DNA of 56,144 bases from a virus, in IMG/VR virus record IMGVR_UViG_3300042197_002821, positions 1-56,144 of that record; one strand, 5' to 3'. The stretch's first letter is position 1. The number at the start of each line of letters is the position of its first letter. Shown piece by piece: positions 1,387 to 55,216 of this stretch. The position numbers and the translations under genes were made by a program. Under the pieces are notes generated by a model. The model saw only the letters and a list, made by a program, of their open reading frames with translations. It did not search any database and had not been told where the DNA came from.

Positions 1387-1388
1387 AA

Positions 1389-1464: not shown

Positions 1465-1470
1465 AATATT

Positions 1471-1542: not shown

Positions 1543-1550
1543 TATAATCG

Positions 1551-1579: not shown

Positions 1580-1595
1580 AGACAAAGTTAGTAAC

Positions 1596-1678: not shown

Positions 1679-1684
1679 AAATAT

Positions 1685-1777: not shown

Positions 1778-1794
1778 ACAAGAAAGGAAAGACC

Positions 1795-1878: not shown

Positions 1879-1945
1879 GTCAGCCTGGTAGACCGCTGCG
1901 TTTGGGACGCAGATGTCGCGAGTTCAAATCTTGCCACTCCGACCA
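1869..1945 (+). tRNA. tRNA-Pro(TGG)
   Basis: Acceptor cggagtg/cactccg, anticodon loop tttggga in a ctgcg/cgcag stem, encoded CCA. The 5' end overlaps the end of a micro-ORF. Confidence 0.95.
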
Positions 1946-1953
1946 GTTTTATC

Positions 1954-2029
1954 GCGCGGTTAGCTCAGTTGGTAGAGCTTCTCGCTTACACCGAGGAGGT
2001 CGGCGGTTCGAGTCCGTCACCGCGCACCA
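1954..2029 (+). tRNA. tRNA-Val(TAC)
   Basis: Acceptor gcgcggt/accgcgc, anticodon loop cttacac, encoded CCA. Confidence 0.95.
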
Positions 2030-2052
2030 GATTAAATTATAAGTATTATCAA

Positions 2053-2126
2053 GCCCCATTAGCATGAAGGTCGTGCAGCCGCCTTGTAAGCGGCAGGTGA
2101 TAGTTCAATTCTGTCATGGGGCACCA
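2053..2126 (+). tRNA. tRNA-Thr(TGT)
   Basis: Acceptor gccccat/atggggc, anticodon loop cttgtaa in a gccgc/gcggc stem, encoded CCA. Confidence 0.95.
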
Positions 2127-2134
2127 AGTTTTAA

Positions 2135-2208
2135 GCGGCGGTCGTATAATGGTAATACCCTAGCCTTCCAAGCTAGAGCCGCGGGTTCGATTCCCGCTCG
2201 CCGCTCCA
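2135..2208 (+). tRNA. tRNA-Gly(TCC)
   Basis: Acceptor gcggcgg/tcgccgc, anticodon loop cttccaa in a ctagc/gctag stem, encoded CCA. Confidence 0.95.
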
Positions 2209-2215
2209 AAGATAT

Positions 2216-2291
2216 CCGCCCTTAGCTCAGGGGACAGAGCAACAGCCTTCTAAGCTGTGGGTCGCACGTTCGATTCGTGCAGGGCGGGCCA
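2216..2291 (+). tRNA. tRNA-Arg(TCT), second copy
   Basis: Acceptor ccgccct/agggcgg, anticodon loop cttctaa in an acagc/gctgt stem, normal D and T arms, encoded CCA. Confidence 0.95.
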
Positions 2292-2306
2292 GTTTTATCA
2301 AAATGA

Positions 2307-2335
2307 TTTACAATCCGAGTTTTATATCTTATAAT
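2307..2335 (+). promoter_or_regulatory. Sigma70-type promoter of rpoZ
   Basis: TTTACA (2307-2312), 17-base spacer, TATAAT (2330-2335). Predicted RNA start is near 2342, which rules out the upstream ATG at 2303 as the start of rpoZ. Confidence 0.8.
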
Positions 2336-2356
2336 AAACGAAATAGGAAAACATCA

Positions 2357-2560
2357 ATGGCGAGAATTACTTCAGAAAAAGCTGTAGAGATCATGGGCAA
2401 TAAATTCGAGTTGATCCTAGTGGCAGCGGCCAGAGCCAGAGAACTAGCTCGAGGAAGTAGACCTCTAGTAGAATCCACCAATGGTACGGTAGTCACGGCT
2501 CTCAGAGAAATCGAAGCAGGAAAGATAGACAAGAAAGAATACCTAAGGAAAAGAAAATGA
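2357..2560 (+). CDS. rpoZ: RNA polymerase omega subunit
   Basis: This 67-residue protein matches bacterial RNA polymerase omega almost end to end: MARIT at the start, then [21 protein letters not shown], and [10 protein letters not shown], each at the spacing of E. coli RpoZ. It lacks the longer acidic C-terminal tail of the E. coli protein and ends in a short basic tail. Omega binds the beta-prime subunit, helps polymerase assembly and affects promoter choice. The start at 2357 is set by the homology and by the promoter just upstream. It overlaps the next gene by four bases (ATGA). An omega subunit is very unusual in a phage; it could compete with host omega to retune the host enzyme (inference). 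Confidence 0.93.
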
Positions 2561-3120
2561 AAATCAGCCTCAGAAAAGCCAACGCCATCCAGACATCGAT
2601 CAACGATGCGGTCCGTGCCCTAAGCTTCGAGACCACCGTGCGGATCAACGAATTCGAAAATCCCGAGCAGAAAATCTCAGAGGCACGAGCGGAATTCAAT
2701 CGCAATTTGGATAGAAAGATCGATCTGGATCTAGTATTGTACAGCATCCGCAAATCAGTGGGCGCTGCCAATCACACATCAGGCATCGACGGTCGTCTAG
2801 CCGATGTGGCCAGGATCGAAAAACAGATCCAACTGCTGACTGGGTTTTCCAAAGACCGAGTCAGAGAGTCTGCGTCAGTGATCTCAGGTAAACTGGAAAA
2901 GATCAAAGCTCGCAAAGAAGATTCTTTCTACGGGCGCGAAGCAGAAATCGCTACATCGATCTTTGACCGAGCGGATGTTACCAGATTCAAAGAGTCATTG
3001 GCTGCCCTGCGCAAAGAAAAACAGCGCATCCAGGACGAGATCCTTGAGCTCAATGTCCGCACTGAGATCACCCTCAGCGATGACGAAGTGGCCATACTCA
3101 AGGTAGACGGCATCGTTTGA
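2557..3120 (+). CDS. Coiled-coil protein of unknown function
   Basis: A 187-residue charged, mostly helical protein translationally coupled to rpoZ. Residues about 75-150 look like a long helical hairpin (repeated RxxxIxxL patterns around KQIQLLTGF and [15 protein letters not shown]). No catalytic motif or known family is recognised. Coupling to rpoZ hints at a transcription-related partner, but this is inference from position only. Confidence 0.8.
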
Positions 3121-3125
3121 TTTCG

Positions 3126-3199
3126 TGCGGGATATTGAAATGGCATCATGGAGGTCTCATAAGCCTCCGTTCCTGGTTCGACTCCGGGTCCCGCTACCA
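3126..3199 (+). tRNA. tRNA-Met(CAT) with a 1:72 mismatch
   Basis: Anticodon loop ctcataa in a gaggt/gcctc stem, T arm cctgg/ccggg, discriminator A and encoded CCA. Six acceptor pairs form (gcggga/tcccgc) while the first and last positions are T and T. An unpaired 1:72 is a hallmark of bacterial initiator tRNA, but the three G-C pairs expected in an initiator anticodon stem are missing. Elongator, initiator or Ile(CAT) identity is open. Confidence 0.75.
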
Positions 3200-3486
3200 G
3201 TTTTGCCAGTTTCGTAAAACTGGCCGGTGACATGGGGGGTAGATGAGGATAGACACACCGTGTTTGGCCAAAAAGCCAAAGACACCTTTGACGACTGCGA
3301 CTGAAAATCGCGACGTGCTTGTGTGCGCCGATTCATACCTAACATAGATTGTCATTTGCTGATCGGAAATAGGCAGGCCTCTGTGGATTGTAGATTGAGG
3401 TTTGTTTGGGGAGTTTCTCGATGAGAGCTCCTGCTTGCATGTTGTCCGGTCTATTACTTGACCCTCCTTGGATCCGTTCATAACCG
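3200..3486 (+). other. Non-coding stretch with hairpins
   Basis: About 290 bases without a convincing gene. Visible hairpins are gccagttt/aaactggc (3205-3224, loop cgta) and tttggc/gccaaa (3263-3280). Neither is followed by a T run. Minus-strand frames here lack ribosome sites and protein-like composition. It may hold an untranslated RNA or the downstream part of the tRNA transcript. Confidence 0.4.
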
Positions 3487-3515
3487 TTGACAACTCCTTA
3501 AAAAGATCATATACT
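3487..3515 (+). promoter_or_regulatory. Sigma70-type promoter of a tRNA-like RNA
   Basis: TTGACA (3487-3492), 17-base spacer, TATACT (3510-3515). The seventh base after the -10 box is 3522, the first base of the acceptor-like stem of the downstream RNA. Confidence 0.85.
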
Positions 3516-3521
3516 CAGTGT

Positions 3522-3624
3522 GTGACCGTAAGCAAACGGGGAAAGCTCTACGTCGTTAATCAGCGATGTCAGGAAGGGACTAGGCCATTGGCCGTCTTTG
3601 GGGGTTCGAGGCCCTCCGGTCACA
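3522..3624 (+). ncRNA. tRNA-like small RNA without CCA
   Basis: The 103-nt segment has a perfect 7-bp acceptor-like stem (gtgaccg/cggtcac), a D-like hairpin, an anticodon-like arm acgtcg/cgatgt with an 8-nt loop (ttaatcag), a strong variable-arm hairpin (ggcc att ggcc) and a T arm with ttcgagg. Unlike nearly all other RNAs of the array it does not encode CCA. It has its own promoter, which starts at its first base. It could be a class II tRNA (a UAA-reading Leu is the obvious missing species) or a tRNA mimic with another role. Confidence 0.6.
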
Positions 3625-3628
3625 GTAG

Positions 3629-3703
3629 CTCTCCGTAGTTCAATGGATAGAACAAGACACTCCTAAGGTTTAGATCCTGGTTCGATTCCGGGCGGAGAGG
3701 CCA
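3629..3703 (+). tRNA. tRNA-Arg(CCT)
   Basis: Acceptor ctctccg/cggagag, anticodon loop ctcctaa, T arm cctgg/ccggg, encoded CCA. The loop-closing anticodon-stem pair is an A-G mismatch. With TCG and two TCT genes it makes four Arg tRNAs. Confidence 0.85.
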
Positions 3704-38882: not shown

Positions 38883-38936
38883 ATGACTACTCCAGAAGAA
38901 CTTTTTCCGCAGACAGATAGAAGAGGAAGTATATGA
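38883..38936 (+). CDS. 17-residue upstream micro-ORF
   Basis: A short frame (begins MTTPEELFPQ) whose stop overlaps the start of the next gene (ATGA). It could couple ribosomes onto the cytidylyltransferase gene. Its own ribosome site is weak. Confidence 0.3.
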   Translation: MTTPEELFPQTDRRGSI

Positions 38937-39340
38937 AGACCGGTTTCACCTGCAGCACCTTTGATCTCTTCCACGCTGGGCATATCATGATGCTCAAGGA
39001 GGCTAAGACCAAATGCGACTATCTTATCGTAGGTTTGCAAACAGACCCAACCATCGATCGAGAATGGAAAAACACGCCAGTGCAATCAGTGTTCGAACGA
39101 TTCGTGCAGCTACAGGCCTGTAAGTATGTCGACGAAATCGTACCGTATGCCACAGAAAAAGAACTGCTGGATATCTTGCAATCATATCCCATAGATGTTA
39201 GAATACTAGGTGAAGAATACCTAGACAAACAATTTACAGGATTCGACCTGCCAATGGGCAAACATTTTAACAGAAGGCGACACAGTTTTTCCACCACAGA
39301 ACTGAGGCAGCGTGTGGTAGATGCGGAGAGTAAAAAATGA
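38933..39340 (+). CDS. TagD-like glycerol-3-phosphate/sugar cytidylyltransferase
   Basis: A 135-residue enzyme with the HxGH motif (FHAGH, residues 13-17), GLQTDPT, and the STTELR (RTSGIST-like) motif near residue 120. These enzymes make CDP-linked polyols from CTP. It may feed the sugar-transfer genes at 19870-22745 or act on lipids. It overlaps the clamp-loader gene by four bases. Confidence 0.83.
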   Translation: MKTGFTCSTFDLFHAGHIMMLKEAKTKCDYLIVGLQTDPTIDREWKNTPVQSVFERFVQLQACKYVDEIVPYATEKELLDILQSYPIDVRILGEEYLDKQFTGFDLPMGKHFNRRRHSFSTTELRQRVVDAESKK

Positions 39341-41737: not shown

Positions 41738-42458
41738 GGACAGCCTACAAGCCGGTGATCTCAGAAATCTGTTGAGCCATATATTCGAAGTCGACCAATA
41801 CAAATCTAAGATGGGCGACGACAAGGATGTGGTCGTGTTGAGCTTCACCGTCGAGAGCGAGCATCCCGCTGACGACCTAGTGGACTTTGTCGAGAAGGGT
41901 TATCAGTTCGTCTTAGATGCTGACAAGAGTCCTGGAGAAATGCGCAACGGAAAATATAAAGTGTTCGTCGAAATAGAACGAGACAAACACATCTCAGAGA
42001 ATATCGAAAATCTCTTGTACGGAGTAGGTAAATTAGCTGGTATAGAAAATTTCAAGTTTAGGTACTATAAGAGCTTCAACAGCATCGAAGCCAACAAGAT
42101 CAATCTCGAAGAGACTATTCCCTCTGATCCAGTAAGCTATGAAACTACCATACAAGAAAGACAGCTAGAGAATTACGATAACTTTTTCTCGCAGAGCATG
42201 CTAGAAAGCCTAACTGTGATAGATGATGTCATAGAATTCAAGAAAGTTTTCGCCGAACCCTTAAAATTTAAAATACTGGAATCAGGCAAGACCAAGACTA
42301 TCCTAGAGTCGCTGACAGATAAGATCGCAGTAGACTACTATGATATGGCCGAAATCATGTTCCTAACCAAATACATCGGTAACTATAACATAACTAAGAT
42401 GGGTACAAAGTTCATGTTCGAACACAGAGATCATGCTGTGATAATGGAGAAAATATAA
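41724..42458 (+). CDS. Hypothetical 244-residue late protein
   Basis: The start at 41724 (MLLNEDSLQA) has GGAGG eight bases upstream; a GTG at 41715 is less likely. The protein is acidic and mostly alpha/beta, with the segment LLYGVGKLAGIENFKFRYYK near residue 95. No family is recognised. It precedes the endolysin gene with a one-base overlap. Confidence 0.75.
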   Translation: MLLNEDSLQAGDLRNLLSHIFEVDQYKSKMGDDKDVVVLSFTVESEHPADDLVDFVEKGYQFVLDADKSPGEMRNGKYKVFVEIERDKHISENIENLLYGVGKLAGIENFKFRYYKSFNSIEANKINLEETIPSDPVSYETTIQERQLENYDNFFSQSMLESLTVIDDVIEFKKVFAEPLKFKILESGKTKTILESLTDKIAVDYYDMAEIMFLTKYIGNYNITKMGTKFMFEHRDHAVIMEKI

Positions 42459-43084
42459 TGTCATTTACTTTCGATTTTAAAAAACAACATCTGCAAGCAT
42501 TGATAGGAAACAATCCTTATCTAGATTACTGGTACAATGCGCTGTGCCAAATACTGCCTGAATATGAGATCAACACACCAGAGCGTGTGGCAGCATGGTT
42601 GGCACAGTGCGCACACGAAAGTGGTTATTTTAAATTTCTCAAAGAAAATCTAAACTACAAGGCGGCCAGCCTGCGTAAAGTATTTCCTAAATATTTCCCC
42701 ACAGACGAGCTGGCAGCTCAATATGAAAAGAAACCAGAAAAGATCGCTAACAGAGTCTATGCCAATCGCATGGGCAACGGTGACGAGGCCAGCGGTGATG
42801 GATTCCGTTATCTAGGACGTGGTCTGATCCAGCTCACAGGCAAGAACAACTATACTATCTTCGCTGCCAGCATCGATACCCCTTTAGAAGAGATTCCAGA
42901 ATACTTACAGACTTTCGAGGGTGCTGTACAGAGCGCCTGCTGGTTCTGGGAACAGAACAATCTTAACAAATTCGCTGATAGCCGAGATATCGTAACCATG
43001 AGCAAACGTATCAACGGCGGAACCATCGGTATGGAAGATCGCATCATGAAATATGAAAAATGCCTTAAGATGTTTGGAGTCTAA
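42458..43084 (+). CDS. GH19 endolysin
   Basis: A 208-residue glycoside hydrolase family 19 (chitinase-fold) enzyme. The catalytic Glu54 is in CAHESG, and GFRYLGRGLIQLTGKNNY marks the substrate cleft. GH19 phage lysins cut peptidoglycan glycan strands. It has no signal peptide, so it would need a holin. It is the first gene of a lysis cassette that includes a spanin pair. Another GH19 protein is at 51451. Confidence 0.9.
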   Translation: MSFTFDFKKQHLQALIGNNPYLDYWYNALCQILPEYEINTPERVAAWLAQCAHESGYFKFLKENLNYKAASLRKVFPKYFPTDELAAQYEKKPEKIANRVYANRMGNGDEASGDGFRYLGRGLIQLTGKNNYTIFAASIDTPLEEIPEYLQTFEGAVQSACWFWEQNNLNKFADSRDIVTMSKRINGGTIGMEDRIMKYEKCLKMFGV

Positions 43085-43086
43085 AG

Positions 43087-43587
43087 ATGTTTGGTATCGG
43101 TGGAATGATAAAAGCCATAGTAGCCCTGATAATCGTTGTTATACTAGCAGGCGGCATATATTATATCACCGGTCTACGTGCTGACCTAGCTGTCAGTGAA
43201 ATGAACAACAAAAAGCTAGAAGAAGGTATTCAGGCACAGCAGGCTCTCATGGAGCAAATGAAAGCTGACGTCGCACAGATACAGACTATCAATCAGGATC
43301 TGGCTAAAGAAGCAGATCGCCAACGTCAAGAAGTAGCACAGCTACAAAACAGATTTTCAGTAAATGCCAAAGGTGAGGCCAGAGACTTTGGTGCTCTAGC
43401 TGCTGAAAAACCCGAAGTAGTAGAACGTGCTGTAAATAGAGGAACTGCTCGAGCATTAAGATGTCTAGAACTAGCATCTGGTGCACCACACACAGAACAA
43501 GAACTACGTGCAACAACATCCAGTGAGATAAACCGTGAATGTCCAACACTTGCGAACCCCAATTATAAGCCTGCTCCTGGCCAGTAG
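43087..43587 (+). CDS. Inner-membrane spanin-like protein
   Basis: A 166-residue protein with one N-terminal membrane segment (about residues 9-29) and a long periplasmic coiled coil (about 35-100) full of Gln and Asp, like Rz-type inner spanins. It ends with a proline-rich tail. It acts after the endolysin, fusing membranes. The outer spanin gene overlaps its C-terminus. Confidence 0.8.
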   Translation: MFGIGGMIKAIVALIIVVILAGGIYYITGLRADLAVSEMNNKKLEEGIQAQQALMEQMKADVAQIQTINQDLAKEADRQRQEVAQLQNRFSVNAKGEARDFGALAAEKPEVVERAVNRGTARALRCLELASGAPHTEQELRATTSSEINRECPTLANPNYKPAPGQ

Positions 43588-45685: not shown

Positions 45686-47929
45686 ATGGTAGAACCCAGT
45701 GATCAACTTACCTCAGTATTCGAAAAAGCCGTCAGTGACTGCAAAAAACTAGACCACGAATACGTAACTCTAGAACATCTGATCTTTGCGATGTTCTGCG
45801 AAGAAAAGTTCTACGACCTAATATCTAACTTTGGTGCCGATGCCGATTATATCAAAGTTTCCCTAGAACACTATCTAAAAAACAATCTCACTGAGATCAA
45901 GATCGCAGAACCTACTAAGAATTTCAAACCCAAGAAAACACAGGCCGTAGAACGTGTGCTTAACCGAGCGTTCACGCAGGTCCTGTTCAGTGGCCGGCAG
46001 AACATAGAGTTGGTAGATGTGTTCCTAGCGGCTCTCAGCGAAAAGAGATCATACGCTGTCTACTATGTTACCAAAGGCGGCATAGACAAAGATAAGTTTG
46101 CTGAGTTCATCAACTCAGAAGCACCTGACGAGGAAATGCCAGCCAATGACTCACAGTTGGAAAAAGCTCTCAAAGAATACACTACCAATCTCAACGAACA
46201 GACCAAGAAGAACAAGATCGATCCAGTGATCGGACGATCGGAGGAGCTAGAACAGATCGCGCTGGGACTTGGACGTAGGACCAAGAACAACGTCCTGCTA
46301 GTTGGCGATCCTGGTGTAGGTAAAACTGCGATCGCAGAAGGTCTGGCCTATAACATCGTCAATGGCAATGTTCCTAACTTCCTCAAAGAATACACCGTTT
46401 ATAATCTCGATATCAGCAGCATGTTGGCCGGTTCTAAATATCGAGGAGACTTCGAAGAACGTTTCAAGATCGTGCTAAAAGCTCTGCAGACCAAAGGCAA
46501 AACTGTGCTGTTCATCGACGAAGCCCATATGATCTCCGGTGCAGGCGCAGGAGGTGGCAACAGTTCCAACGATCTAGCCAACATGATGAAGCCTGCACTG
46601 AGCAAAGGCAACATCAAAGTAGTGGCATCTACTACCTGGGAAGAATATCGCAAATATTTCGAAAAAGATCGTGCCCTGATGCGCAGATTCCAAAGGATCA
46701 CGGTAGACGAACCGTCACCAGAAATGAGCATTGAGATCCTCAGAGGCATCAAAAAATACTACGAGGATCATCACAAAGTAGAAATCACCGACGAAGCTAT
46801 CCAATCGGCGGTAAAACTGTCAGTGAAATACATGAACGATAAAAAACTACCCGACAAGGCCATCGATTTGATCGATGTAGCCTGTTCTAGGTTTAATATC
46901 AAAGACAGCGATACTCGTGTGATCGGTACCCAGGAAGTGCAGTTTGAGCTCAGTAAAATGGTCAAACTGCCCGAAGAAACTATCAAGGAAAAAGAAAGCA
47001 ACAATCTCGCAGGATTAGATAAGAACCTCAAGAGCGAAGTCTACGGGCAAGATGAAGCCATCGATGAAGTCGTAGACAAGATATTAGTAGCTCAAGCAGG
47101 ACTGAAACCCGAAAACAAACCCATTGGTAGCTTCGTGTTTATGGGCCCCACTGGTGTTGGTAAGACTGAAGCTGCCAAGCAGATTTCTAAGCATCTTGGT
47201 ATTCCTATGATACGTTTCGATATGAGCGAATATCAAGAGAAGCACTCAGTGTCGAAATTGATCGGTAGTCCTCCGGGCTATGTGGGCTTCGAAGAAAACG
47301 CAGGATTGCTGATCACGAAATTGCAGGAAAATCCACACTGCGTTCTACTGCTAGATGAGATAGAGAAAAGCCATCCTGATGTCAGTACCATCCTTTTACA
47401 GTTGATGGACAATGGTTTCGTCACTGGCAGCAATGGCAAAGTCGCAGATGCCCGAAACGTGATATTGATCATGACCACAAACCTAGGCGCATCAGAGGCT
47501 GAGAAGCTAAAGATTGGCTTCGGCAATCAGGAAAACGAATACGAAGACAAAGAAATCAAGAAATTCTTTGCACCAGAATTCCGCAATCGCTTAGACGGAG
47601 TGATCAGATTCGGCAGCCTCAGCAAAGAAACTATGATCAAGATCGTGGGCAAATTCCTCGTCGAGCTCAAAGAACAGATCAAAGACAAAGAAATCAAGAT
47701 CAAGATCGACAACGATGCCATCGATTACCTCGTAGACAAAGGATTCGATCGCAAGATGGGTGCAAGACCTCTGCAACGGGTCATAGACAAAGAAATCAAG
47801 CGTCCTTTGAGCAAAATGATGCTGTTCGGAGACTTGAAAAATGGCGGGAAGCTGTCGATAAACGTGTCTAATGATGGTTTAGAACTGATCACTGAACCAA
47901 AAGAGGATCTAGTTTCCGAAAGCAACTGA
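45686..47929 (+). CDS. ClpA-type AAA+ unfoldase with IGF loop
   Basis: A 747-residue Clp/Hsp100 ATPase: N-domain (residues 1-145), first AAA+ with Walker A GDPGVGKT (207-214), second AAA+ with GPTGVGKT (about 486-493). There is no ClpB-type middle coil, and length matches ClpA (758). An IGF sequence in KLKIGFGNQ (about 609-613) is the ClpP-docking loop found in ClpA and ClpX but not ClpB. It can therefore pair with the phage ClpP (17169) or host ClpP. It shares a promoter with the J protein. Confidence 0.9.
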   Translation: MVEPSDQLTSVFEKAVSDCKKLDHEYVTLEHLIFAMFCEEKFYDLISNFGADADYIKVSLEHYLKNNLTEIKIAEPTKNFKPKKTQAVERVLNRAFTQVLFSGRQNIELVDVFLAALSEKRSYAVYYVTKGGIDKDKFAEFINSEAPDEEMPANDSQLEKALKEYTTNLNEQTKKNKIDPVIGRSEELEQIALGLGRRTKNNVLLVGDPGVGKTAIAEGLAYNIVNGNVPNFLKEYTVYNLDISSMLAGSKYRGDFEERFKIVLKALQTKGKTVLFIDEAHMISGAGAGGGNSSNDLANMMKPALSKGNIKVVASTTWEEYRKYFEKDRALMRRFQRITVDEPSPEMSIEILRGIKKYYEDHHKVEITDEAIQSAVKLSVKYMNDKKLPDKAIDLIDVACSRFNIKDSDTRVIGTQEVQFELSKMVKLPEETIKEKESNNLAGLDKNLKSEVYGQDEAIDEVVDKILVAQAGLKPENKPIGSFVFMGPTGVGKTEAAKQISKHLGIPMIRFDMSEYQEKHSVSKLIGSPPGYVGFEENAGLLITKLQENPHCVLLLDEIEKSHPDVSTILLQLMDNGFVTGSNGKVADARNVILIMTTNLGASEAEKLKIGFGNQENEYEDKEIKKFFAPEFRNRLDGVIRFGSLSKETMIKIVGKFLVELKEQIKDKEIKIKIDNDAIDYLVDKGFDRKMGARPLQRVIDKEIKRPLSKMMLFGDLKNGGKLSINVSNDGLELITEPKEDLVSESN

Positions 47930-47952
47930 TTTGCGAGCTAGGCATATAATAG

Positions 47953-47960
47953 CATAAATA
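47953..47960 (+). promoter_or_regulatory. T4-type late promoter (CATAAATA)
   Basis: CATAAATA is 22 bases before the ATG of the first head-cargo gene; a TATAAT (47945-47950) lies just upstream. A short dyad, agcataaa/tttatgct, surrounds the start point. Confidence 0.65.
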
Positions 47961-47982
47961 ATTTGTTAACAGGGTTTATGCT

Positions 47983-48339
47983 ATGCCTACTTTCAAAGAA
48001 CTATTCGAAAATCTAAGCAGACCAGAAAATTGGTTGGAAGAAACCTATCACGGCGACGATTTTCATCTGATCTACGGTGAGATCGAAGAGACCCTAGAGG
48101 AAGCTGAATACCGAGGACGTAAAGTTTCCCTAGGGAAGCCCATGCAGGGCGATGTCAAAAAATTCAAAGTCTATGTACGCAACCCTCAAGGGAATGTAGT
48201 CAAGGTTAATTTTGGTGATCCTAACATGAAGATCAAGAAAAGCGATCCGGCTCGAAGAAAATCTTTTCGCGCTCGACACAACTGCGACAATCCCGGTCCT
48301 CGAACCAAGGCTCGTTATTGGAGCTGTCGCAAATGGTGA
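47983..48339 (+). CDS. Head-cargo candidate with basic Cys/Trp C-terminus
   Basis: A 118-residue protein that starts with a short amphipathic segment (MPTFKELFENLS) similar to T4 capsid-targeting peptides (MKTYQEFIAEA). Residues 60-80 form a beta unit (KFKVYVRNPQGNVVKVNFGD) and the last 30 are basic with Cys and Trp (RKSFRARHNCDNPGP, KARYWSCRKW). It is probably packed in or on the head. LFEN near residues 7-10 could be a prohead-protease site. Confidence 0.72.
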   Translation: MPTFKELFENLSRPENWLEETYHGDDFHLIYGEIEETLEEAEYRGRKVSLGKPMQGDVKKFKVYVRNPQGNVVKVNFGDPNMKIKKSDPARRKSFRARHNCDNPGPRTKARYWSCRKW

Positions 48340-48343
48340 TATC

Positions 48344-48685
48344 ATGCTGCTAAGAGAATTCATAAATTTAAAAGAATTAGAAGACGTAGATCTCTGTGAC
48401 GATCTGCAGGTATTCATGCGCAACGATCCGTTGTTCTATAGAAAAATATTTTATCCAGAGATCGTTAAAGTCAGAGACAGGATAAAATCCGGAAAAAGAT
48501 GCGAGGAAACCTGTTTCAGAAACTGTGTCGATCGAGCTGCAGATGCTTACTGCGAAAAATTCAAAGTATCAACCAATCCGATCAGTGTGTTTACTGAAGT
48601 AGATCGAGACAAAGTCGCTAGACAGATTTTCGCCAAAGAGCGAGACAACATCATCAAAGGCCGATATGACAGGAGTGAAGGATGA
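48344..48685 (+). CDS. Head-cargo candidate, Cys-rich
   Basis: A 113-residue protein beginning MLLREFINLKELED, another member of the targeting-peptide set. Its middle has closely spaced cysteines (RCEETCFRNCVDRAADAYCEKF, a 22-residue stretch with four Cys) that may bind zinc or an iron-sulfur cluster or make disulfides after delivery. Four-base overlap with the next gene. Confidence 0.7.
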   Translation: MLLREFINLKELEDVDLCDDLQVFMRNDPLFYRKIFYPEIVKVRDRIKSGKRCEETCFRNCVDRAADAYCEKFKVSTNPISVFTEVDRDKVARQIFAKERDNIIKGRYDRSEG

Positions 48686-49413
48686 TCATTTCCGAAGGTG
48701 GTAACGTAATACAGGGAGCAGTTCCTTTAAACAAAGCTGACTTTCCTCTAGTGATGGCCAATCTCGAAAAGATCTTGCCTAAAGGTTTGAATCTCTATCC
48801 TATCGGTTCCGCAGGCAAAAAAGAAGTCAGTTCTGACATAGACGCTTTGATTGATGCTGAAGAGCTGATGGCTGCTTTTCCTGCCAAAGAATTAAAGTTC
48901 AGTCGCAAAGAACTAGAAGACTATTTCAAGGCCAAGGGACTGCAGGCTGCGAGAACAGGTGTCAGCGTGCATGTGGGAATTTCCATCGGCGATACTGATA
49001 AGTTAGTACAAGTAGATCTCATGGCTGTAGAAAAGGCAGCAGCCGCACAGCCATTGCACATGCATGACTATGATGATCCTACCATGAAGGGCGGTACTCT
49101 GCATGCCATGTGGGCCGACCTCGCTAATCTCAGCAGCGTAGAAGGTCATCCTAGCCTGATGATGAGTCCCTACAAAGGACTAGTAGATAGGCAGACCAAA
49201 CAGTTGGTCACCGGCGATAAAGATGAGATAGCCAAGATAATCATAGGACCCACTGCTTCTGCTGCCGACATGGGCAATCCTAAGAAAGTCCTAGCAGCCC
49301 TGCGCAACTATCCAAAGAAGTATCATGAAATCAAAAACAAGTATTTTCCCGACATGCAGGAAGGTACCAATGTTTGGTTCCGGCAGATGATCAACATAGC
49401 GAGCGTGAAATGA
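48682..49413 (+). CDS. Polymerase-beta-type nucleotidyltransferase
   Basis: A 243-residue protein. GSAGKKEVSSDIDALID (residues 39-55) is the GS..(K)..SDxD metal site of the polymerase-beta nucleotidyltransferase superfamily, and LVQVDLM (about 110) supplies the third acidic residue. These enzymes attach NMPs to proteins, antibiotics or RNA. Its N-terminus (MIISEGGNVI) only weakly resembles the targeting peptide. It is coupled to both neighbours. Confidence 0.78.
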   Translation: MIISEGGNVIQGAVPLNKADFPLVMANLEKILPKGLNLYPIGSAGKKEVSSDIDALIDAEELMAAFPAKELKFSRKELEDYFKAKGLQAARTGVSVHVGISIGDTDKLVQVDLMAVEKAAAAQPLHMHDYDDPTMKGGTLHAMWADLANLSSVEGHPSLMMSPYKGLVDRQTKQLVTGDKDEIAKIIIGPTASAADMGNPKKVLAALRNYPKKYHEIKNKYFPDMQEGTNVWFRQMINIASVK

Positions 49414-50576
49414 GAGCTCGAGAATTCATTCTCAGAGAAGCTGCGCCAGCTATTGGTAGGAAATACCAGCACATAGAAGATCTAGTTTTTACCAATGGCA
49501 GCGACGGTGGAATACATGCCGCTGAGAGACTGCGGTCAATGGCTGGTCAAAGTGGTACCATAGAACTGAAATGGGACGGCAGCCCTGTGGTCTATTGGGG
49601 TCGGACCGAAGATGGTCAATTCATGCTGATACCTAAGAACGCCTGGGAATATCTCAAGCGAGGCAAGACTGAGTTAGATGGTGGAATCAAAACAGCAATG
49701 GCCGAACCCGGAGACATCAGCAAGTTCATCCTCGGCACTGGTAAGCCGCCCGAGAACAAAGAAGCCGAAGTCAAAAGAAAACAGTATGCCCAACAACTAG
49801 CCAGCTTGTGGCCATATTTCGAAAAAGCCAGTCCTCCAGATGGATTCATCGAAGGCGGGCTATTATTCTATCCTGGAACTAAACCGGATGGCTCCACTGC
49901 AGCAGCCGTGTTAAATCAAGAAACAGGCGAGTACGAATTTACTCCCAATATCACTACGTTCCATATACATCGAGATTCTGATCTAGGTAAAAGGATAGCC
50001 AAAGCTAAGATCATGATAGCAGCTACAGGATATTACAAAAATCTAGGCAGCTCCGAGGAAACTAGATATCCTGGTGCGCAGGGATTATCTACTAATGACG
50101 TCATAGTACAGGGCACTACCTACGTAGAAAAGGCTCCTGAGATCGACGACAGGCTAGTAGATCAAGCCGAGCAATACATAGAACAGAATGCCGCTGTCAT
50201 AGATCAGTTCCTAGCGCCTAAACCTGGATTGAGCAAACCTGGAGAAATACTCTATAAGTTTTACAATCAGAACAAACGTGTAGCTGGTGTCAAAGAAAAA
50301 TTCCGTGCATGGGCCGCAGAAAATTTGTCTGCTGGACAGGCCAACAAAGTAATAGCAGACAAAGGATTAGACGTAGTATTAAATGCCGTGGAAATGTTGA
50401 CGACTGCTAAAATGGATATGATCAAGAAGATCAGTTCCGGAACACATGGCGGAGTTAGGCAGACCAAACCCGAGGGATATGTGCAGGCGCATCCAGGCGG
50501 TAAGTTTAAGAAAGATATTCCAGGTCAGTTCGTCAAAGCCATCGATCAAGATACATGGGCACCAAGGAAAGAATAA
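49410..50576 (+). CDS. Ligase-like KxDG protein with capsid-targeting start
   Basis: A 388-residue protein. The N-terminus MRAREFILREAAPAIG fits the targeting peptide with a possible cut after LRE. Residues 51-62 (IELKWDGSPVVY) look like motif I of nucleotidyl-transferring ligases (KxDG), where Lys would carry AMP, followed by EGGLLFYPG, which could be motif IV. It might be a DUF6267-type protein; catalytic activity is unproven. Start chosen at 49410 because it overlaps the NTase stop. Confidence 0.7.
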   Translation: MRAREFILREAAPAIGRKYQHIEDLVFTNGSDGGIHAAERLRSMAGQSGTIELKWDGSPVVYWGRTEDGQFMLIPKNAWEYLKRGKTELDGGIKTAMAEPGDISKFILGTGKPPENKEAEVKRKQYAQQLASLWPYFEKASPPDGFIEGGLLFYPGTKPDGSTAAAVLNQETGEYEFTPNITTFHIHRDSDLGKRIAKAKIMIAATGYYKNLGSSEETRYPGAQGLSTNDVIVQGTTYVEKAPEIDDRLVDQAEQYIEQNAAVIDQFLAPKPGLSKPGEILYKFYNQNKRVAGVKEKFRAWAAENLSAGQANKVIADKGLDVVLNAVEMLTTAKMDMIKKISSGTHGGVRQTKPEGYVQAHPGGKFKKDIPGQFVKAIDQDTWAPRKE

Positions 50577-50577
50577 C

Positions 50578-51234
50578 ATGTTTATAAGAGAACTATTCGA
50601 AAAAATATCCAGAACCGGTCAAGGTGATACCGCAGTAGTAGGTTGGGGTCGAGGTATGGGGCACAAGGGACACATGATGTTGGCCAGCTCCGTGATCACA
50701 CAGGCTAAAAAATCTAACGGAGATCCTTACTTCGTCGTTAGCAGGACCGTTGGTAAAGATGATCCACTGACCGCCGATGAAAAGATCGCTATCTATAAAA
50801 AAGTTTTTCCTAAACAGGGACATATATTCCAAGCAGCCAGCGACGAGATACCTGATCTAACAAAAGTATTATCCAACCTAAATCAACAAGGTTATAAAAA
50901 TGCTATAGTAGTCTTAGGTGCGGATCAGGTCAAAGCCTTCCAATATCTAAAACAATACAATGGTAAACCTAACAAAAAAGGTGAGATACCTTTTGATTTT
51001 GATAATCTAGAAGTTATCAGCAGGCAGGAAACTGGAGATCCTTCAGCAGGTGAAGAGGGGCCAAGGGCTACTCCGCTAAGGAACATCTTAAACGATCCTA
51101 CCGTATCTCCCGAAGAACAGTTCAAAGCATGGAGAGATGCCATGAGTCCTGAACTCAGTGACGACGAAGTTAGAGCACTTATGGCCAAGGCCAAAGAGAG
51201 AATGGCTCAATTCGCTGCACCTAAGAAAAAATAG
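50578..51234 (+). CDS. HxGH nucleotidylyltransferase with capsid-targeting start
   Basis: A 218-residue protein. MFIRELFEKISRTG is the targeting-like start. VGWGRGMGHKGHMML (residues 21-35) contains HKGH, the HxGH signature of cytidylyl- and NMN-adenylyltransferases, although the usual FNPPT lead-in is replaced by RGM. VVLGADQV near residue 115 matches the GSDRV block. It is the third nucleotidyl-transfer gene in a row. Confidence 0.75.
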   Translation: MFIRELFEKISRTGQGDTAVVGWGRGMGHKGHMMLASSVITQAKKSNGDPYFVVSRTVGKDDPLTADEKIAIYKKVFPKQGHIFQAASDEIPDLTKVLSNLNQQGYKNAIVVLGADQVKAFQYLKQYNGKPNKKGEIPFDFDNLEVISRQETGDPSAGEEGPRATPLRNILNDPTVSPEEQFKAWRDAMSPELSDDEVRALMAKAKERMAQFAAPKKK

Positions 51235-51235
51235 C

Positions 51236-51454
51236 ATGGACGAGCTCGATCGTATCAAGAAGTTAGCGGGCGTCAGCGAATTCAAAGGTTGGCAACCAGT
51301 GGCCACAGAAAACATTTCACATACTGGCACAGAAAAACATCGTCTTGAGCGAGAAATGAACATACGACCCGGTGATCTGGATTGGTTTAAGCTATGGTTC
51401 AGCCGGCCGTATTGGTTGGGCTTCCCACCTAAGTTTCGAGGTAGAAAGGCATGA
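51236..51454 (+). CDS. Hypothetical 72-residue protein with the ELxRIKxLAG motif
   Basis: A small protein that opens MDELDRIKKLAGV; a very similar motif (VELNRIKMLSGL) ends the 322-residue protein at 54248. The rest (MNIRPGDLDWFKLWFSRPYW) is aromatic. Start chosen for overlap and motif. It may bind a head component. Confidence 0.65.
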   Translation: MDELDRIKKLAGVSEFKGWQPVATENISHTGTEKHRLEREMNIRPGDLDWFKLWFSRPYWLGFPPKFRGRKA

Positions 51455-52758
51455 AGATCTCCGAGGTCGTCAACGAAGCAAAGAGAAAGAGACGGAGAAA
51501 GCGTGTTAAAGGTGCTGCCTACGGTCCGGGACCATTTGGCATGTACGGTACTGCCGTAGGCTATAGCGGAGCCGGTGGTGGTGGTGCAGGTGTTGCTGTA
51601 GGTGAGGCAGCCTATCCAGGAAATCTAGGAGCAATGGAACTAGCAGCTTTCTTCAAGAAAGCTACTCCACAACAAAAGGCCCTGTTAAAAAAATTCATAG
51701 AAGAAAAAAACAGTCGTTCAGCTTGGGCATTGATCAAAAAAATCACAGGCACTGAACTAGTAGGCAAAGAGTTTAACGAGGGAGAATACGTACAAGTAAC
51801 TTTAGATAACGGTGAAAAGAAATATCTACGTACTTTCGGAAAAAGAAACAAAGACATAATCAATTATTTTCGCAAGCTAGGACACCAAGTAGCCTGCATC
51901 GATAATCAATGCCCCCCATCAATAAAAGAAGATAACTTAGACGAAGGGTGGCGAGATTGGATAGCAGGTGCTGCGTTAGGTGCCGGTGTCGCTTTAAGCG
52001 GGCCTGCAGCAGCTGACGTAGAAAGAGTACAGGTACAAAAGGGTGATACCGTATATTCTATAGCTAAAGCGTTTAGTACTACCCCGCAGGTCATACAAAA
52101 ACTAAACAAACTAGATAAAAATTTTACGGTCAAACCTGGTCAAGAAATCAAAGTACCGAAATGGCCTGAAGTCAAAGAACCAGAGAAAAAGAAGCCAGAG
52201 AAAAAGAAGTCAGAGAAAAAACTCGATGTTAGTAAAACACTGACAGGTACCATGCACGAAGCTATATTAATCAGAGAAGCTAACCGTGCGGGAATAACCG
52301 ATCCGGTAGAACTAGCAGCGTTATTGTCACAGGCCGCTCACGAAAGCCATGATTTTAAATCTATGGTAGAATATGGCGGGAGCTTAGATTTTAAAAAGTA
52401 TGATCCTAAATATGCTCCCAAGAAGGCACGAGCTTTAGGAAATACCAAAGTGGGCGATGGTGCTAGATACAAAGGTCGAGGATACATACAGCTTACTGGT
52501 CGTTACAATTATAAACGTGCCGGTGAGGCTCTAGGCTTGCCTTTAGAAGCTAAACCAGAACTAGCAGAAAAACCAGAAATAGCTGCGAAAATAGCAGTAT
52601 GGTTTTGGAAGCAGCGTGTACAACCAAACGTGAATAATTTTGATGATGTTAGATCTGTGACCAAGCCTATAAATCCAGGCCTGGCTGGACTACAGGATAG
52701 AAAAGTAGCTTTCCAAGATTTCATAAACTTTACAAAATCTCTAGGAAGATCTATATGA
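51451..52758 (+). CDS. LysM-GH19 muramidase with capsid-targeting start
   Basis: A 435-residue protein. MKISEVVNEAKRKRRRKR is the targeting-like start followed by a basic run. A Gly-rich region follows, then a possible membrane-active hydrophobic stretch (about 168-188), LysM (191-237), a Lys/Pro/Glu linker, and a GH19 domain (about 265-430; AHESH with Glu298, KGRGYIQLTGRYNY). Candidate cut sites are VNE-A, VGE-A and LDE-G. It likely travels with the genome and cuts peptidoglycan at entry, unlike the GH19 lysin at 42458. Confidence 0.8.
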   Translation: MKISEVVNEAKRKRRRKRVKGAAYGPGPFGMYGTAVGYSGAGGGGAGVAVGEAAYPGNLGAMELAAFFKKATPQQKALLKKFIEEKNSRSAWALIKKITGTELVGKEFNEGEYVQVTLDNGEKKYLRTFGKRNKDIINYFRKLGHQVACIDNQCPPSIKEDNLDEGWRDWIAGAALGAGVALSGPAAADVERVQVQKGDTVYSIAKAFSTTPQVIQKLNKLDKNFTVKPGQEIKVPKWPEVKEPEKKKPEKKKSEKKLDVSKTLTGTMHEAILIREANRAGITDPVELAALLSQAAHESHDFKSMVEYGGSLDFKKYDPKYAPKKARALGNTKVGDGARYKGRGYIQLTGRYNYKRAGEALGLPLEAKPELAEKPEIAAKIAVWFWKQRVQPNVNNFDDVRSVTKPINPGLAGLQDRKVAFQDFINFTKSLGRSI

Positions 52759-52955
52759 AAGTACGTGAAATAATTTCCGAAAACTTTGCGGATGGCAAAG
52801 TAAAGGGCAAGAGCCGTCCTGGTAGAGTTAAAAAATCAGGGGCTAGTTGTAAAGGTTCTGTAACAGATCTTAGAGCTCGTGCTAAGAAATACGGTGGCGA
52901 AAAAGGAAAGATGTATCATTGGTGTGCTAATATGAAAGGCGGTAAGAATAAATAA
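52755..52955 (+). CDS. Small basic head-cargo candidate
   Basis: A 66-residue, Lys/Gly-rich protein beginning MKVREIISENFADG, with the targeting pattern. Its last half (SCKGSVTDLRARAKKYGGEK, MYHWCANMK) is a small Cys-bearing basic domain, resembling the DUF5872-type tail of phage head proteins. It overlaps the muramidase gene by four bases. Confidence 0.7.
   Translation: MKVREIISENFADGKVKGKSRPGRVKKSGASCKGSVTDLRARAKKYGGEKGKMYHWCANMKGGKNK
52947..52954 (+). promoter_or_regulatory. Weak late-box candidate (AATAAATA)
   Basis: AATAAATA overlaps the last codons of the previous gene and lies seven bases before the next ATG. It may be chance from AAT AAA TAA codons. Confidence 0.25.
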
Positions 52956-52961
52956 CATATT

Positions 52962-54224
52962 ATGAAAATCAACGACATCATTTTAGAAAAAGCTGCTGCT
53001 AAACCTAGGAATTTCGTGGCTAAAAATGCCGGGAAAACTACCTCTGGTGCTGGCAAACATAAAGATAGAAAGAAAGCCGCAAAACAGGGAGATGTAAAAC
53101 ACAAAGGCAAGGTGATGGCGGAAGGCTCAGAGGATGATATAGAAGATACACGACAATGGAGAGATGCTATCGCTTTGGCCAAATCACAAAAGGCGATCCG
53201 TCAGGCTCGATATGGCAAAGATCAGAAATTTTATGCTGATGGAACGCCAGTGACCCCCGAGGAAGTTGCTCGCAGAGCCGCAGAAAGAAAAGCCAAAAAG
53301 AAAGGTGTGGCGGAAGGCATCAGTGTAGTTGATCAAGACTATGACTTAGATCAAATCATTTTAACCTTAGATATCGAAGGTCGGAGAGTATCATTTACCT
53401 ATACTGACTATGACGAAAACTTTGAAAACGCAGAACGTCGAGATGTGTTTGATCAACTACAGGAAAAATCATGGTATAAGGGTTTAGATCATCCTACTAA
53501 AATGGAGATCTTAGATGCTGCCTACAAGGCTATAAGAGGTGAAGAACCCAGCGAATACAAACCTAGAGTTGATGATGAGCCGTTAGACATAGACGAAGGG
53601 GTCTCGGAAGGCAGCGACTGGGGCGAACCTAGAGAGATACTGAAAGATGTTCTACAGACTTTGGAGCGTGAAGTAGAGTGGCCATTGACCGAGGTAATGG
53701 ATCCTAGAGAAGTACGCCAACTATTGGCACCTATCATAAAAGCAGTAAATGATAAAATGATGAGTATGAAAGAAGCACAAGACGACTGGGGCGGTATGAG
53801 CCACAGAGAATTCAAGCGTAAAGAATTACAGCATGAACTAGGACATGAAGACGATCCGGAATTTCAAAGACAGATGCGGGAAAAAGATCGCGGGCCCTGG
53901 TACATCAAAATCGACGGTCGTATTTACAAGCAGAAGGGCCAACCTAAAGCGTTTGACTGGAAAAAAGGTGCTAACAACTATGCATTGGCTATGGTAAAAA
54001 ATCAGCCTGCTCTCAAAAGTAAGATATTGTTAACTAAAAATCTCAGCGACGATGTTGCAGAAACTGCCACCACAGGATCTATGTCATCGGGTGATTTTTC
54101 TGTTGGTGCTGTATATCCTAACAAAAAGGGCAAGACCTACAAGAACAAAGACGGTACCACTAAAAATGCCCTGGATATCAAAGGTGGTAATTTATTAACT
54201 GGTGGCAGCATCGCCAAACGATAA
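52962..54224 (+). CDS. Multi-module head-cargo protein with VAEG-type sites
   Basis: A 420-residue protein starting MKINDIILEKAAAK (targeting-like). It is divided by sites fitting T4-type prohead protease cleavage after Glu: VMAEG (51-55), GVAEG (115-119), GVSEG (213-217) and VAET (365-368). Between them lie a basic module (1-51), a helical linker, an acidic domain (about 120-212), a helical domain (about 217-300) and a small Gly/Lys-rich end. It may be a polyprotein that yields several peptides in the head. A late promoter follows. Confidence 0.72.
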   Translation: MKINDIILEKAAAKPRNFVAKNAGKTTSGAGKHKDRKKAAKQGDVKHKGKVMAEGSEDDIEDTRQWRDAIALAKSQKAIRQARYGKDQKFYADGTPVTPEEVARRAAERKAKKKGVAEGISVVDQDYDLDQIILTLDIEGRRVSFTYTDYDENFENAERRDVFDQLQEKSWYKGLDHPTKMEILDAAYKAIRGEEPSEYKPRVDDEPLDIDEGVSEGSDWGEPREILKDVLQTLEREVEWPLTEVMDPREVRQLLAPIIKAVNDKMMSMKEAQDDWGGMSHREFKRKELQHELGHEDDPEFQRQMREKDRGPWYIKIDGRIYKQKGQPKAFDWKKGANNYALAMVKNQPALKSKILLTKNLSDDVAETATTGSMSSGDFSVGAVYPNKKGKTYKNKDGTTKNALDIKGGNLLTGGSIAKR

Positions 54225-54227
54225 ATA
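54220..54227 (+). promoter_or_regulatory. T4-type late promoter (GATAAATA)
   Basis: GATAAATACAG overlaps the stop codon of the previous gene, 20 bases before the ATG at 54248. A GGAG site follows. Confidence 0.7.
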
Positions 54228-54247
54228 CAGTATAACGGAGTTTAGAC

Positions 54248-55216
54248 ATGCCAGATTTACCAAAACAACAAGAACCTCAGATGCAGATGCAACTGAGCGT
54301 GCCGCAAGATGATCACGAAGGGCAGATGGCCCGCGCCGATTTATACAGAGCTGCTAAACATGCTATGAAGCTGTTCGAGATGATACAAGAAGGCCAAGAA
54401 CTAGAAGGATGGGTGCAGGCCAAGATCACAAAATCTGCAGACTATCTCGATTCGGTTTTCCACTACATGGAATATCAGATGAAATTTGGCGACGGTGCTA
54501 GGGCTAGCAGCGTTGATGACATCACTGGCGAAGCACAGGTCGCGAGAGAAAAAGAAGTGTCCGAAGAGGACGATGAAAAAATGGAGAGCAACATGAACTA
54601 TGATCAAAAACTCAAGGCACTTCTAGAAAGCGCCAAGAAAAAACAAGAAGAAAAGAAACCTGCTAAAAAAGTCGCAGAAAAAAAACCGGCCAAGAAAGAA
54701 GTCAAGACCGACGAAGCACTGGACATGAATCTAGTCAAGGCTGCGCAGAAAGGCCAAGCAGGCAAGCCTATCGGTAAGCCAGATGCCGAGAGCGACAAGA
54801 ACATTAAAAAGAAATACGGTTATCGTTCCGACGGCGAGCCTTCGGAGAAAGAAGACGAAGTAGGCAAGCAAGACCGCCCAGGCCGTAAGCGCAAGACCAA
54901 AGAAAGCATGGTCAAGGCAGTGATCAAGCGTGTAGTAGAAGCCAACAAACCCGATGTCAACAAAGACGGTATTCCTGACTATGCTCAAGACGGCAAAGGT
55001 GCCAAAGATCTAGGCAAAGGCAAGACGCCCGCAAACAAAGGCGGGGAGAAAAAAACTGCCAAAGGTATGACTGCTGCCCAGAAAAAATTACCTCCTGGAT
55101 TACAGAAAGCCATCGCTAAAAAGAAAGGTGCCAGCGAAAGCACAGTTTCCGCTAAGAAAGTAATGGCAGAATCTGTAGAACTAAATCGCATCAAGATGCT
55201 GAGTGGACTGAAATAA
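54248..55216 (+). CDS. Charged scaffold-like protein with a calcium-loop motif
   Basis: A 322-residue, Lys/Glu-rich protein with long helical stretches (about 30-75, 115-150) and Lys/Ala repeats (EKKPAKKVAEKKPAKKE). The segment DVNKDGIPDYAQDG (about 238-251) is a DxNxDGxxD calcium loop like thrombospondin type 3 repeats. The end is VELNRIKMLSGLK, related to the start of the protein at 51236; VMAES just before it could be a protease site. Made from a late promoter; a core or scaffold role is likely. Confidence 0.72.
   Translation: MPDLPKQQEPQMQMQLSVPQDDHEGQMARADLYRAAKHAMKLFEMIQEGQELEGWVQAKITKSADYLDSVFHYMEYQMKFGDGARASSVDDITGEAQVAREKEVSEEDDEKMESNMNYDQKLKALLESAKKKQEEKKPAKKVAEKKPAKKEVKTDEALDMNLVKAAQKGQAGKPIGKPDAESDKNIKKKYGYRSDGEPSEKEDEVGKQDRPGRKRKTKESMVKAVIKRVVEANKPDVNKDGIPDYAQDGKGAKDLGKGKTPANKGGEKKTAKGMTAAQKKLPPGLQKAIAKKKGASESTVSAKKVMAESVELNRIKMLSGLK

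Follow-up and report, generated by a model that had tools for sequence, protein, structure and literature searches.

Three adjoining phage genes with different predicted nucleotidyl-transfer folds form a recurring module with head-targeting-like peptides

Three consecutive plus-strand genes in the analysed window, i.e. the whole stretch of 56,144 nt, encode proteins with different predicted nucleotidyl-transfer folds. In the ORF list they lie exactly where an earlier sequence-only reading had placed three such folds side by side. The first gene (48682..49413) encodes a nucleotidyltransferase (NTase) of 243 aa with a polymerase-X-like fold, the catalytic residues D52, D54 and D112 and the N-terminus MIISE/GG (slash: cut-like site). 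It is followed by the gene of a 388 aa protein with ligase-like motifs, the KxDG protein of Pfam family DUF6267 (49410..50576; mechanical ORF start upstream at 49374), and by that of a 218 aa, NMN adenylyltransferase-like HxGH nucleotidyltransferase (50578..51234; mechanical ORF start at 50446). Start and stop codons within the trio overlap or almost touch in an operon-like manner.

The trio is embedded in a cassette of plus-strand genes whose products carry tag-like N-termini. Upstream lie the genes of a small protein of unknown function (47983..48339; MPTFKELFE; phrog_7595, 7.8e-12) and of a 113 aa protein (48344..48685; MLLREFINLKE; tag matrix score 9.4, rank 6 of 1008 start sites). Downstream follow a lysozyme-like enzyme with LysM and GH19 domain matches (51451..52758; MKISEVVNE/A), a 66 aa protein (52755..52955; MKVREIISE/N; score 11.5, rank 2/1008) and a 420 aa protein (52962..54224; MKINDIILE/K; score 7.1, rank 7/1008). 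A second, separate GH19 endolysin is encoded at 42458-43084, adjoining a spanin gene, and the phage has 22 tRNA genes. At 47954..47960 (plus strand), 23 nt upstream of the first cassette gene, we found the late-promoter-like sequence ATAAATA, which we take to be the late element of T4 and the cyanophages. Seven of the eight plus-strand ATAAATA sites precede an ORF of at least 100 aa by no more than 35 nt, a count that does not exceed 3 for the 20 other permutations of these letters. The total number of ATAAATA sites in the window showed no excess, only their position before genes standing out, and for TATAAATA no enrichment was found.

The NTase contains GSAGKKEVSSDID. Residues G42, D52, D54 and D112 were present in all 41 aligned relatives and S43 in 40 of them, which corresponds to the GS...DxD...D pattern of DNA polymerase X. 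The structural model (pLDDT 92) matched the DNA polymerases beta, lambda and mu with a Foldseek E-value of 1.1e-5, and comparison with polymerase X by VIA aligned 167 residues at 3.3-3.4 Å with Z 10.6. Residues 11-200 of the model cover both palm and thumb of polymerase X, i.e. more than a minimal NTase. The polymerase X family was absent from the 24 Pfam families matched by the 41 NTases, and nucleotidyltransferase-type matches were weak. The predicted resemblance of the NTase to DNA polymerase X is based on the fold and the three catalytic aspartates; its setting in a head cassette also differs from that of the polymerases. The African swine fever virus, whose repair set is packaged in the virion, likewise combines a polymerase X and a ligase in one virus, but it is an unrelated virus and provides an analogy of folds only.

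The KxDG protein matched DUF6267 (PF19782) with 64 bits compared to a curated cut-off of 27, and all 66 members of its alignment matched this family (E-values up to 1). Motifs of covalent nucleotidyltransferases (ligases and capping enzymes) occur in the expected order: motif I is KWDG at residues 54-57 (K54-W-D-G), motif III lies in the region 148-150, motif IV is E355-G and motif V is K376. K54, D56, G57, E355, G356 and K376 are invariant in the 66 relatives. The motifs were assigned by eye, the residues being on or beside the expected strands of the model (pLDDT 92; below 50 for the first 16 residues). All 50 VIA matches listed for the model were RNA, tRNA or DNA ligases with RNA ligases ranking highest; the best Z of 7.1 over 179 residues is to be read with VIA's own note that values below 8 can mean a common arrangement. 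The best Foldseek match was a fungal tRNA ligase (E 0.022), with no PDB match below 0.001. At the level of sequence profiles no significant match was obtained to T4 Rnl2, the DNA ligase of the window or PDB chains; hhalign returned a probability of 0.1 both for T4 Rnl2 and for a set of six Rnl2 sequences, and the RNA ligase family PF09414 had 0 matches in the window record. Since these links failed, we dropped the assignment of the protein to an RNA ligase family. In its motifs, and probably in its predicted fold, it resembles members of the RNA/DNA ligase superfamily such as T4 Rnl2, Naegleria RNA ligase and Trl1, from which it differs by additional helices that separate motif III from motif IV and by ending without a further domain after motif V. 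A ligase-like nature of DUF6267 was not found in the literature searched.

The HxGH protein carries HKGH at residues 29-32 (H29-x-G-H32) as well as GPRATPxR. Among 26 relatives G31, H32 and R168 are present throughout, and position 29 is H in 11 and T in 15, in agreement with the (H/T)xGH plus C-terminal R motifs of NMN/NaMN adenylyltransferases. NadR- and NadD-type models were matched by 16 and 15 of these relatives (up to 1e-6); the window protein itself matched none of the NCBIfam models. Because NadR/NadD models match many relatives, the PHROG name "cytidyltransferase" was set aside in favour of an NMNAT-like label, and the protein appears closest to NMN adenylyltransferases. For the whole trio, substitution of catalytic residues in homologues had been named beforehand as evidence against enzymatic transfer. 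None was observed, the residues being invariant in 41/41 NTase, 66/66 KxDG and 26/26 HxGH relatives. Because of this invariance a structural, non-catalytic role was rejected; the proteins are very probably active enzymes.

We then compared gene neighbourhoods in 121 of 379 KxDG ORFs, which were kept if they covered at least 80% of the domain on the plus strand with 1300 bases upstream and 1000 downstream, near-duplicates being removed by shared 4-mers. The HxGH gene was adjacent or fused to the KxDG gene in 116 of these 121 loci and the NTase gene in 66, the latter being missing from 54. Fusions comprised 24 NTase-KxDG, 17 KxDG-HxGH and 5 triple proteins. The three genes thus form a module, whose recurring order, together with the invariant catalytic residues, indicates more than a chance arrangement. 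To the extent that fusions and a fixed gene order can demonstrate it, the proteins act jointly, and functional coupling of the products is probable. The trio was not found in the literature searched. A near-DNA search of phage records gave no match to the window, and tblastn with the NTase as query found no phage isolate.

The relatives place the module in different settings. In the isolates S-PM2, ACG-2014j, HTVC008M and Melnitz-3 the KxDG gene is located among replication genes, helicase and primase flank the genes in some marine-type relatives, and in the pelagiphage HTVC008M a Zeta/PNK-like kinase separates KxDG from HxGH. Some HxGH relatives are joined to endolysin-like domains, which speaks for packaging, and some carry a sigma-70 region 4 domain (L019, 5.5e-18). 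A comparable architecture is known, according to the available text of Iyer et al. 2017 (PMC5512222), from the polyvalent proteins that phages and conjugative elements carry in with their DNA, in which effector enzymes are fused to domains of the lysozyme or ParB type and the like. Relatives of the trio with at least two effector domains are of this kind, whereas the window has three separate genes and not one multi-effector polypeptide.

Internal proteins that are targeted to T4-type capsids carry a short N-terminal peptide that is cut after L/I-x-E (PMC9026906). Such N-termini are found throughout the trio: LRE/A in the KxDG protein (MRAREFILRE, 49410..49439 on the plus strand, followed by A), LFE/K in the HxGH protein (MFIRELFE, 50578..50601, plus strand) and ISE/G in the NTase, which has just a short variant of the tag. 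The two targeting peptides proposed from the sequence thus stood up to closer inspection, as did the proposed head-cargo cassette. A tag matrix trained on 87 KxDG and HxGH N-termini of other contigs, a few of which are internal methionines of fusions, placed 6 of its 7 best sites among the 1008 start sites of the window between 48344 and 52962, with the HxGH protein ranking 1/1008 (score 16.2). When KxDG and HxGH were left out, 4 of the next 5 best sites were still in the cassette (P = 1.7e-4). A cut-like site was present in 43 of the 46 stand-alone N-termini from this lineage (background 7.5%) and at all 24 NTase-KxDG junctions (5.3%), counts that are not independent, since the sequences are related and the pattern was chosen after viewing them. 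Packaging is not universal, given that the KxDG protein lacks a cut-like N-terminus in 46 of 51 marine-type loci and sits among replication genes in isolates.

Among the closest known systems are the virion NMNAT-like or cytidylyltransferase proteins of T4-like cyanophages (T4-GC190; S-SM1, S-SCSM1, S-CREM2, S-SZBM1), which share the HxGH family with the window protein (profile E-values of 2e-74 for SSM1_190 and 2e-77 for SSCSM1_91). The presence of HxGH in virions is already published: the accessible parts of the proteomics reports describe the homologue (PMC3037559, PMC9602691, PMC10665884, PMC9146016), including the tagged proteins of S-SM1 (MKKFSAFLNE/A) and S-SCSM1 (MKSFLQFLKE/A) from purified virions, with the authors of two proteomes warning of possible carry-over. 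In these parts neither KxDG nor NTase is reported from virions, and the cyanophage stretches compared differ from the window in having no polymerase-X-like NTase gene. The KxDG gene adjoins in S-SM1, its product SSM1_189 being without a clear tag. The virion protein SSCSM1_90, which adjoins HxGH in S-SCSM1 and was expected to be KxDG, turned out not to be KxDG. Overall, T4-type head targeting of the cassette is well supported. From this we infer that NTase and KxDG are packaged as well, and consider it highly probable that the trio enzymes are loaded into the phage head. As most trio proteins bear tags resembling those used for head loading, a small kit for repair or nucleotide supply is probably injected by the phage along with its DNA.

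Late in infection a T4-type late promoter would drive transcription of the cassette, as the motif suggests. The N-terminal peptides would direct the proteins into the prohead core, where the head protease would cut after L/I-x-E; the virion proteomics of HxGH homologues supports this step. After injection, the NTase may fill in or add nucleotides at ends or gaps, as its fold and catalytic residues suggest, and the KxDG protein, adenylylated at K54, may seal 5'-phosphate ends in line with its ligase-like motifs and fold. The HxGH protein, judged by family resemblance, would convert NMN and ATP into NAD+. This NAD+ could supply or regenerate the adenylyl donor, or it could replenish a pool that host defence has drained. 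That nucleic-acid ends are the target of NTase and KxDG appears slightly more probable than not, and the chances are about even that the head-loaded trio enters with the DNA and acts jointly on such ends and a needed nucleotide cofactor. A more specific version is quite unlikely: a packaged DNA end-joining and gap-repair machine, in which the polymerase-X-type enzyme fills or adds, DUF6267 as a new ligase family seals, and the adenylyltransferase recycles released NMN such that sealing uses ATP-derived NAD+. At the onset of infection, ahead of any gene expression, this machine would repair or join the genome that has just entered, in some relatives as one long protein cut into its parts by the head protease.

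The sequence-only reading had proposed, with T4 Alt as precedent, that this phage may inject nucleotidyltransferases to modify host proteins, tRNA or DNA ends. As protein modifiers they would nucleotidylate the host's RNA polymerase or further proteins. Alt shares the short N-terminal peptide, the cut site and the proposed injection with the trio but is an ADP-ribosyltransferase and not one of three nucleotidyl-transfer folds. Besides this precedent, the sigma-70 domain on some HxGH relatives and the prediction that pol-beta NTases of polyvalent proteins modify proteins (available text of PMC5512222) speak for such modifiers. The NTase model, however, spans palm and thumb, and KxDG is ligase-like. 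With polymerase X, RNA/DNA ligases and an NMN adenylyltransferase-like family as best matches, an Alt-like activity was not supported and is distinctly improbable; the matches point to nucleic-acid ends and NAD+ instead of host proteins. Our preferred reading is a packaged unit that repairs nucleic-acid ends and is supported by NAD+ supply, in preference to an Alt-like protein modifier.

As an alternative, the injected HxGH enzyme could immediately synthesize NAD+ from NMN to counter NAD+-draining defences, with KxDG and NTase tuning or using the NAD+. HxGH is the partner detected in virions, NadR/NadD models match members of its family, the cyanophage proteome authors proposed NAD+ synthesis, and phage rebuilding of NAD+ is an established anti-defence theme (PMC12774641), both as far as the accessible text goes. 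We nevertheless regard this as rather unlikely, as it leaves the ligase-like and polymerase-like partners and their fusion to HxGH unexplained and the window HxGH matched no NCBIfam model. A similarly small probability is given to a kit in which the ligase and an end-adding NTase repair tRNAs that anticodon nucleases of the host have cleaved during phage entry; an NTase combined with an RNA ligase is a described pairing for repair (PMC9503650, available text). The RNA and tRNA ligases that head the VIA and Foldseek matches of KxDG, the 22 tRNA genes and the kinase of HTVC008M agree with it; polymerase X as best match of the NTase, the DNA replication genes around KxDG-HxGH in isolates and the unexplained HxGH do not. 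Finally, the enzymes might serve replication or nucleotide metabolism in the infected cell with incidental N-termini, as the untagged marine-type loci (46/51) and the position between helicase and primase would suggest. The clustering of tags, the cut-like sites retained at fusion junctions and the published detection of tagged HxGH homologues in virions, to the extent of the accessible reports, make this improbable.

Linking DUF6267, so far without function, to the ligase superfamily, a fixed HxGH partner and the phage head opens its role to study by simple assays. Should packaging be confirmed, T4-like phages from lakes and seas would deliver several nucleotidyl-transfer enzymes together with their DNA and so broaden a theme for which T4 Alt and the polyvalent proteins have been the main examples.

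The window, a viral record of 56,144 bases, appears to be one piece of a large T4-like phage genome; among its genes scanned there was neither a major capsid gene nor a head protease gene. The genes of a polymerase-X-like nucleotidyltransferase (NTase, 243 aa), a ligase-like protein with a KxDG motif (388 aa) and an NMN adenylyltransferase-like protein with an HxGH motif (218 aa) are consecutive and gapless on the plus strand at 48682-51234. All motifs that the sequence-only reading had assigned to them were found. That reading had named substituted catalytic residues in homologues as evidence against itself; in alignments of relatives the residues were conserved in all three proteins. In the NTase G42, D52, D54 and D112 were invariant (41/41) and S43 was present in 40 of 41. 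The KxDG protein kept K54, D56 and G57 (motif I), K76, N180, K334, E355 and G356 (motif IV) and K376 (motif V) in 66/66 sequences, while in the motif III region E148 and D150 each occurred in 33/66. For the HxGH protein G24, R25, G31, H32 and R168 were invariant (26/26).

The NTase matched no family in Pfam or PHROG. Its AlphaFold2 model (pLDDT 92, pTM 0.84) resembled DNA polymerases mu, lambda and beta (Foldseek E 1.1e-5; VIA Z 10.6 for 167 residues at 3.3-3.4 A, covering residues 11-200). Pfam places the KxDG protein in DUF6267 (2e-17), a family without assigned function that was matched by 66/66 aligned relatives. Its model (pLDDT 92, pTM 0.87) showed a weak but consistent likeness to ligases: all 50 VIA matches listed were RNA, tRNA or DNA ligases, the best among them being Naegleria RNA ligase (Z 7.1, 179 residues), and the best Foldseek match was a fungal tRNA ligase (E 0.022). 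Against a viral structure library 15 matches fell below 0.001, among them a number of cytidyltransferase-like proteins from phages, for example S-PM2; from 0.02 upwards matches were mixed, with RNA and DNA ligases frequent. Since sequence profiles gave no support to any ligase family, we term the modelled protein ligase-like rather than a ligase. The HxGH protein matched the PHROG family 'cytidyltransferase' (2.3e-23), and PHROG 455 covers both proteins, with HxGH lying centrally and KxDG at the beginning. In an NCBIfam scan 17 of 26 HxGH relatives matched a general adenylyl/cytidylyltransferase model, 16 NadR-type and 15 NadD-type NMN adenylyltransferase models; the window's own protein matched no NCBIfam model. 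Outside the head-cargo cassette, the window has a second HxGH-type gene at 38933-39340 (phrog_7878, heptose 1-phosphate adenylyltransferase-like, 8.5e-36).

Relatives of each protein were taken from IMG/VR and all ORFs were profile-searched; 121 of 379 KxDG ORFs were kept after dropping short flanks, partial domains and near-duplicates. HxGH was directly 3' of KxDG or fused to it in 116 loci, with 5 exceptions. The NTase was directly upstream (42) or fused (24) in 66 loci and elsewhere in one; the 54 loci that lacked it were almost all marine-type. Fusions joined NTase to KxDG in 24 loci, KxDG to HxGH in 17 and all three in 5. This order and these fusions argue for a shared function. Named isolates with the KxDG-HxGH pair are Synechococcus phages ACG-2014j and S-PM2, Pelagibacter phage HTVC008M and Methylophilales phage Melnitz-3. 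Because contigs of bacterial and archaeal genomes gave only 14 loci with KxDG relatives, KxDG looks like a phage family. The S-PM2 KxDG gene is split in AJ630128.1, while LN828717.1 holds a single 591-aa KxDG-HxGH protein, which affects the annotation of T4-GC71/190 in this phage.

In T4, gp21 cleaves after L/I-x-E, and just the 10 N-terminal residues of IPIII are described as enough for packaging (PMC9026906). A position matrix for such head tags, trained on 87 KxDG and HxGH N-termini from other contigs, was applied to 1008 start sites in the window. Six of the seven top scores belonged to HxGH, KxDG, the genes starting at 48344, 52755 and 52962, and a LysM-GH19 enzyme (51451); the remaining one, at 15863 (MNKKELFEQIKG), lies far outside the head-cargo cassette, ranked third and has a head-tag-like N-terminus. 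With KxDG and HxGH excluded, 4 of the 5 best sites lay within 47900-54300 (P = 1.7e-4). A cut-like site, its pattern chosen after looking at these related sequences, preceded the KxDG domain in 43/46 of this lineage's stand-alone proteins (7.5% background within those proteins) and marked 24/24 NTase-KxDG junctions (5.3% background), an internal position in these fusions. Since only 5/51 marine-type KxDG proteins, HTVC008M included, carry it, the pair seems to have moved into the head in this lineage and a few others.

The presence of HxGH proteins in virions is already published. T4-GC190, a putative cytidylyltransferase, was detected in purified S-SM1 virions (Sullivan et al. 2010, PMC3037559); it is SSM1_190, begins MKKFSAFLNE|A (bar, putative cut position) and follows SSM1_189 (T4-GC71), a KxDG protein. 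S-SCSM1 virions contain the NMNAT-like ORF91 (PMC9602691), which begins MKSFLQFLKE|A. S-CREM2 ORF154 (3 peptides; PMC10665884) and an S-SZBM1 cytidylyltransferase (PMC9146016) were also detected, and by their names we take both to be of the HxGH family. The S-SCSM1 and S-CREM2 reports caution about carry-over. In the literature searched we found no account of the HxGH head tag or partners. For the NTase and KxDG proteins we infer packaging in the head; that the trio is not packaged at all appears improbable to us.

A polymerase-X-like and a ligase-like protein with an NMNAT-like partner point to nucleic-acid ends and NAD+. We favour a packaged end-repair unit, to which we give about even chances; it and its rivals are not mutually exclusive. 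The adenylyl donor could be NAD+, in which case HxGH would recycle the NMN. NAD+ counter-defence would be an unlikely use of the trio, and tRNA repair is just as unlikely. Modification of proteins, which the sequence-only reading had proposed alongside that of tRNA or DNA ends, we hold to be about as improbable as absence of packaging. The window encodes 22 tRNAs at 52-3703, 20 of them within the first 2.3 kb; at 12605 it also has an ordinary ATP-dependent DNA ligase.

In HTVC008M a Zeta-toxin/polynucleotide-kinase-like gene (L160:5333-5992) lies between KxDG and HxGH, as an end-repair set would predict. The gene before KxDG in S-SM1 (SSM1_188, L401:46447-47280) and in Melnitz-3 (L383:5260-6342) shows by eye a (T/E)PKTDIL...(S/C)xK pattern like that of PD-(D/E)xK nucleases; the Melnitz-3 gene matched no Pfam family.

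HxGH relatives also carry extra domains: sigma-70 region 4 in L019 (7470-9014; 5.5e-18), ParB in L013 (9119-12724) and L109, cytidine deaminase in L013, and endolysin or peptidoglycan-binding domains in L007, L036 and, weakly, L003. The proteins of L019 and L013 are possibly injected transcription factors, and cell-wall enzymes fused to HxGH would fit entry with the virion, as is argued likewise for polyvalent proteins (PMC5512222). The window has one GH19 endolysin-like gene at 42458-43084, adjoining a spanin gene (43087-43587), and another, with LysM, in the cassette at 51451-52758. From its head-tag-like N-terminus and its position, the latter is probably a virion-borne cell-wall enzyme. 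A late-promoter-like ATAAATA element lies 23 nt 5' of the first cassette gene. On the plus strand of the whole window 7 of 8 copies precede ORFs of at least 100 aa by no more than 35 nt, and other permutations of the letters reach at most 3. ATAAATA before gene starts offers a handle on the late genes of this phage group.
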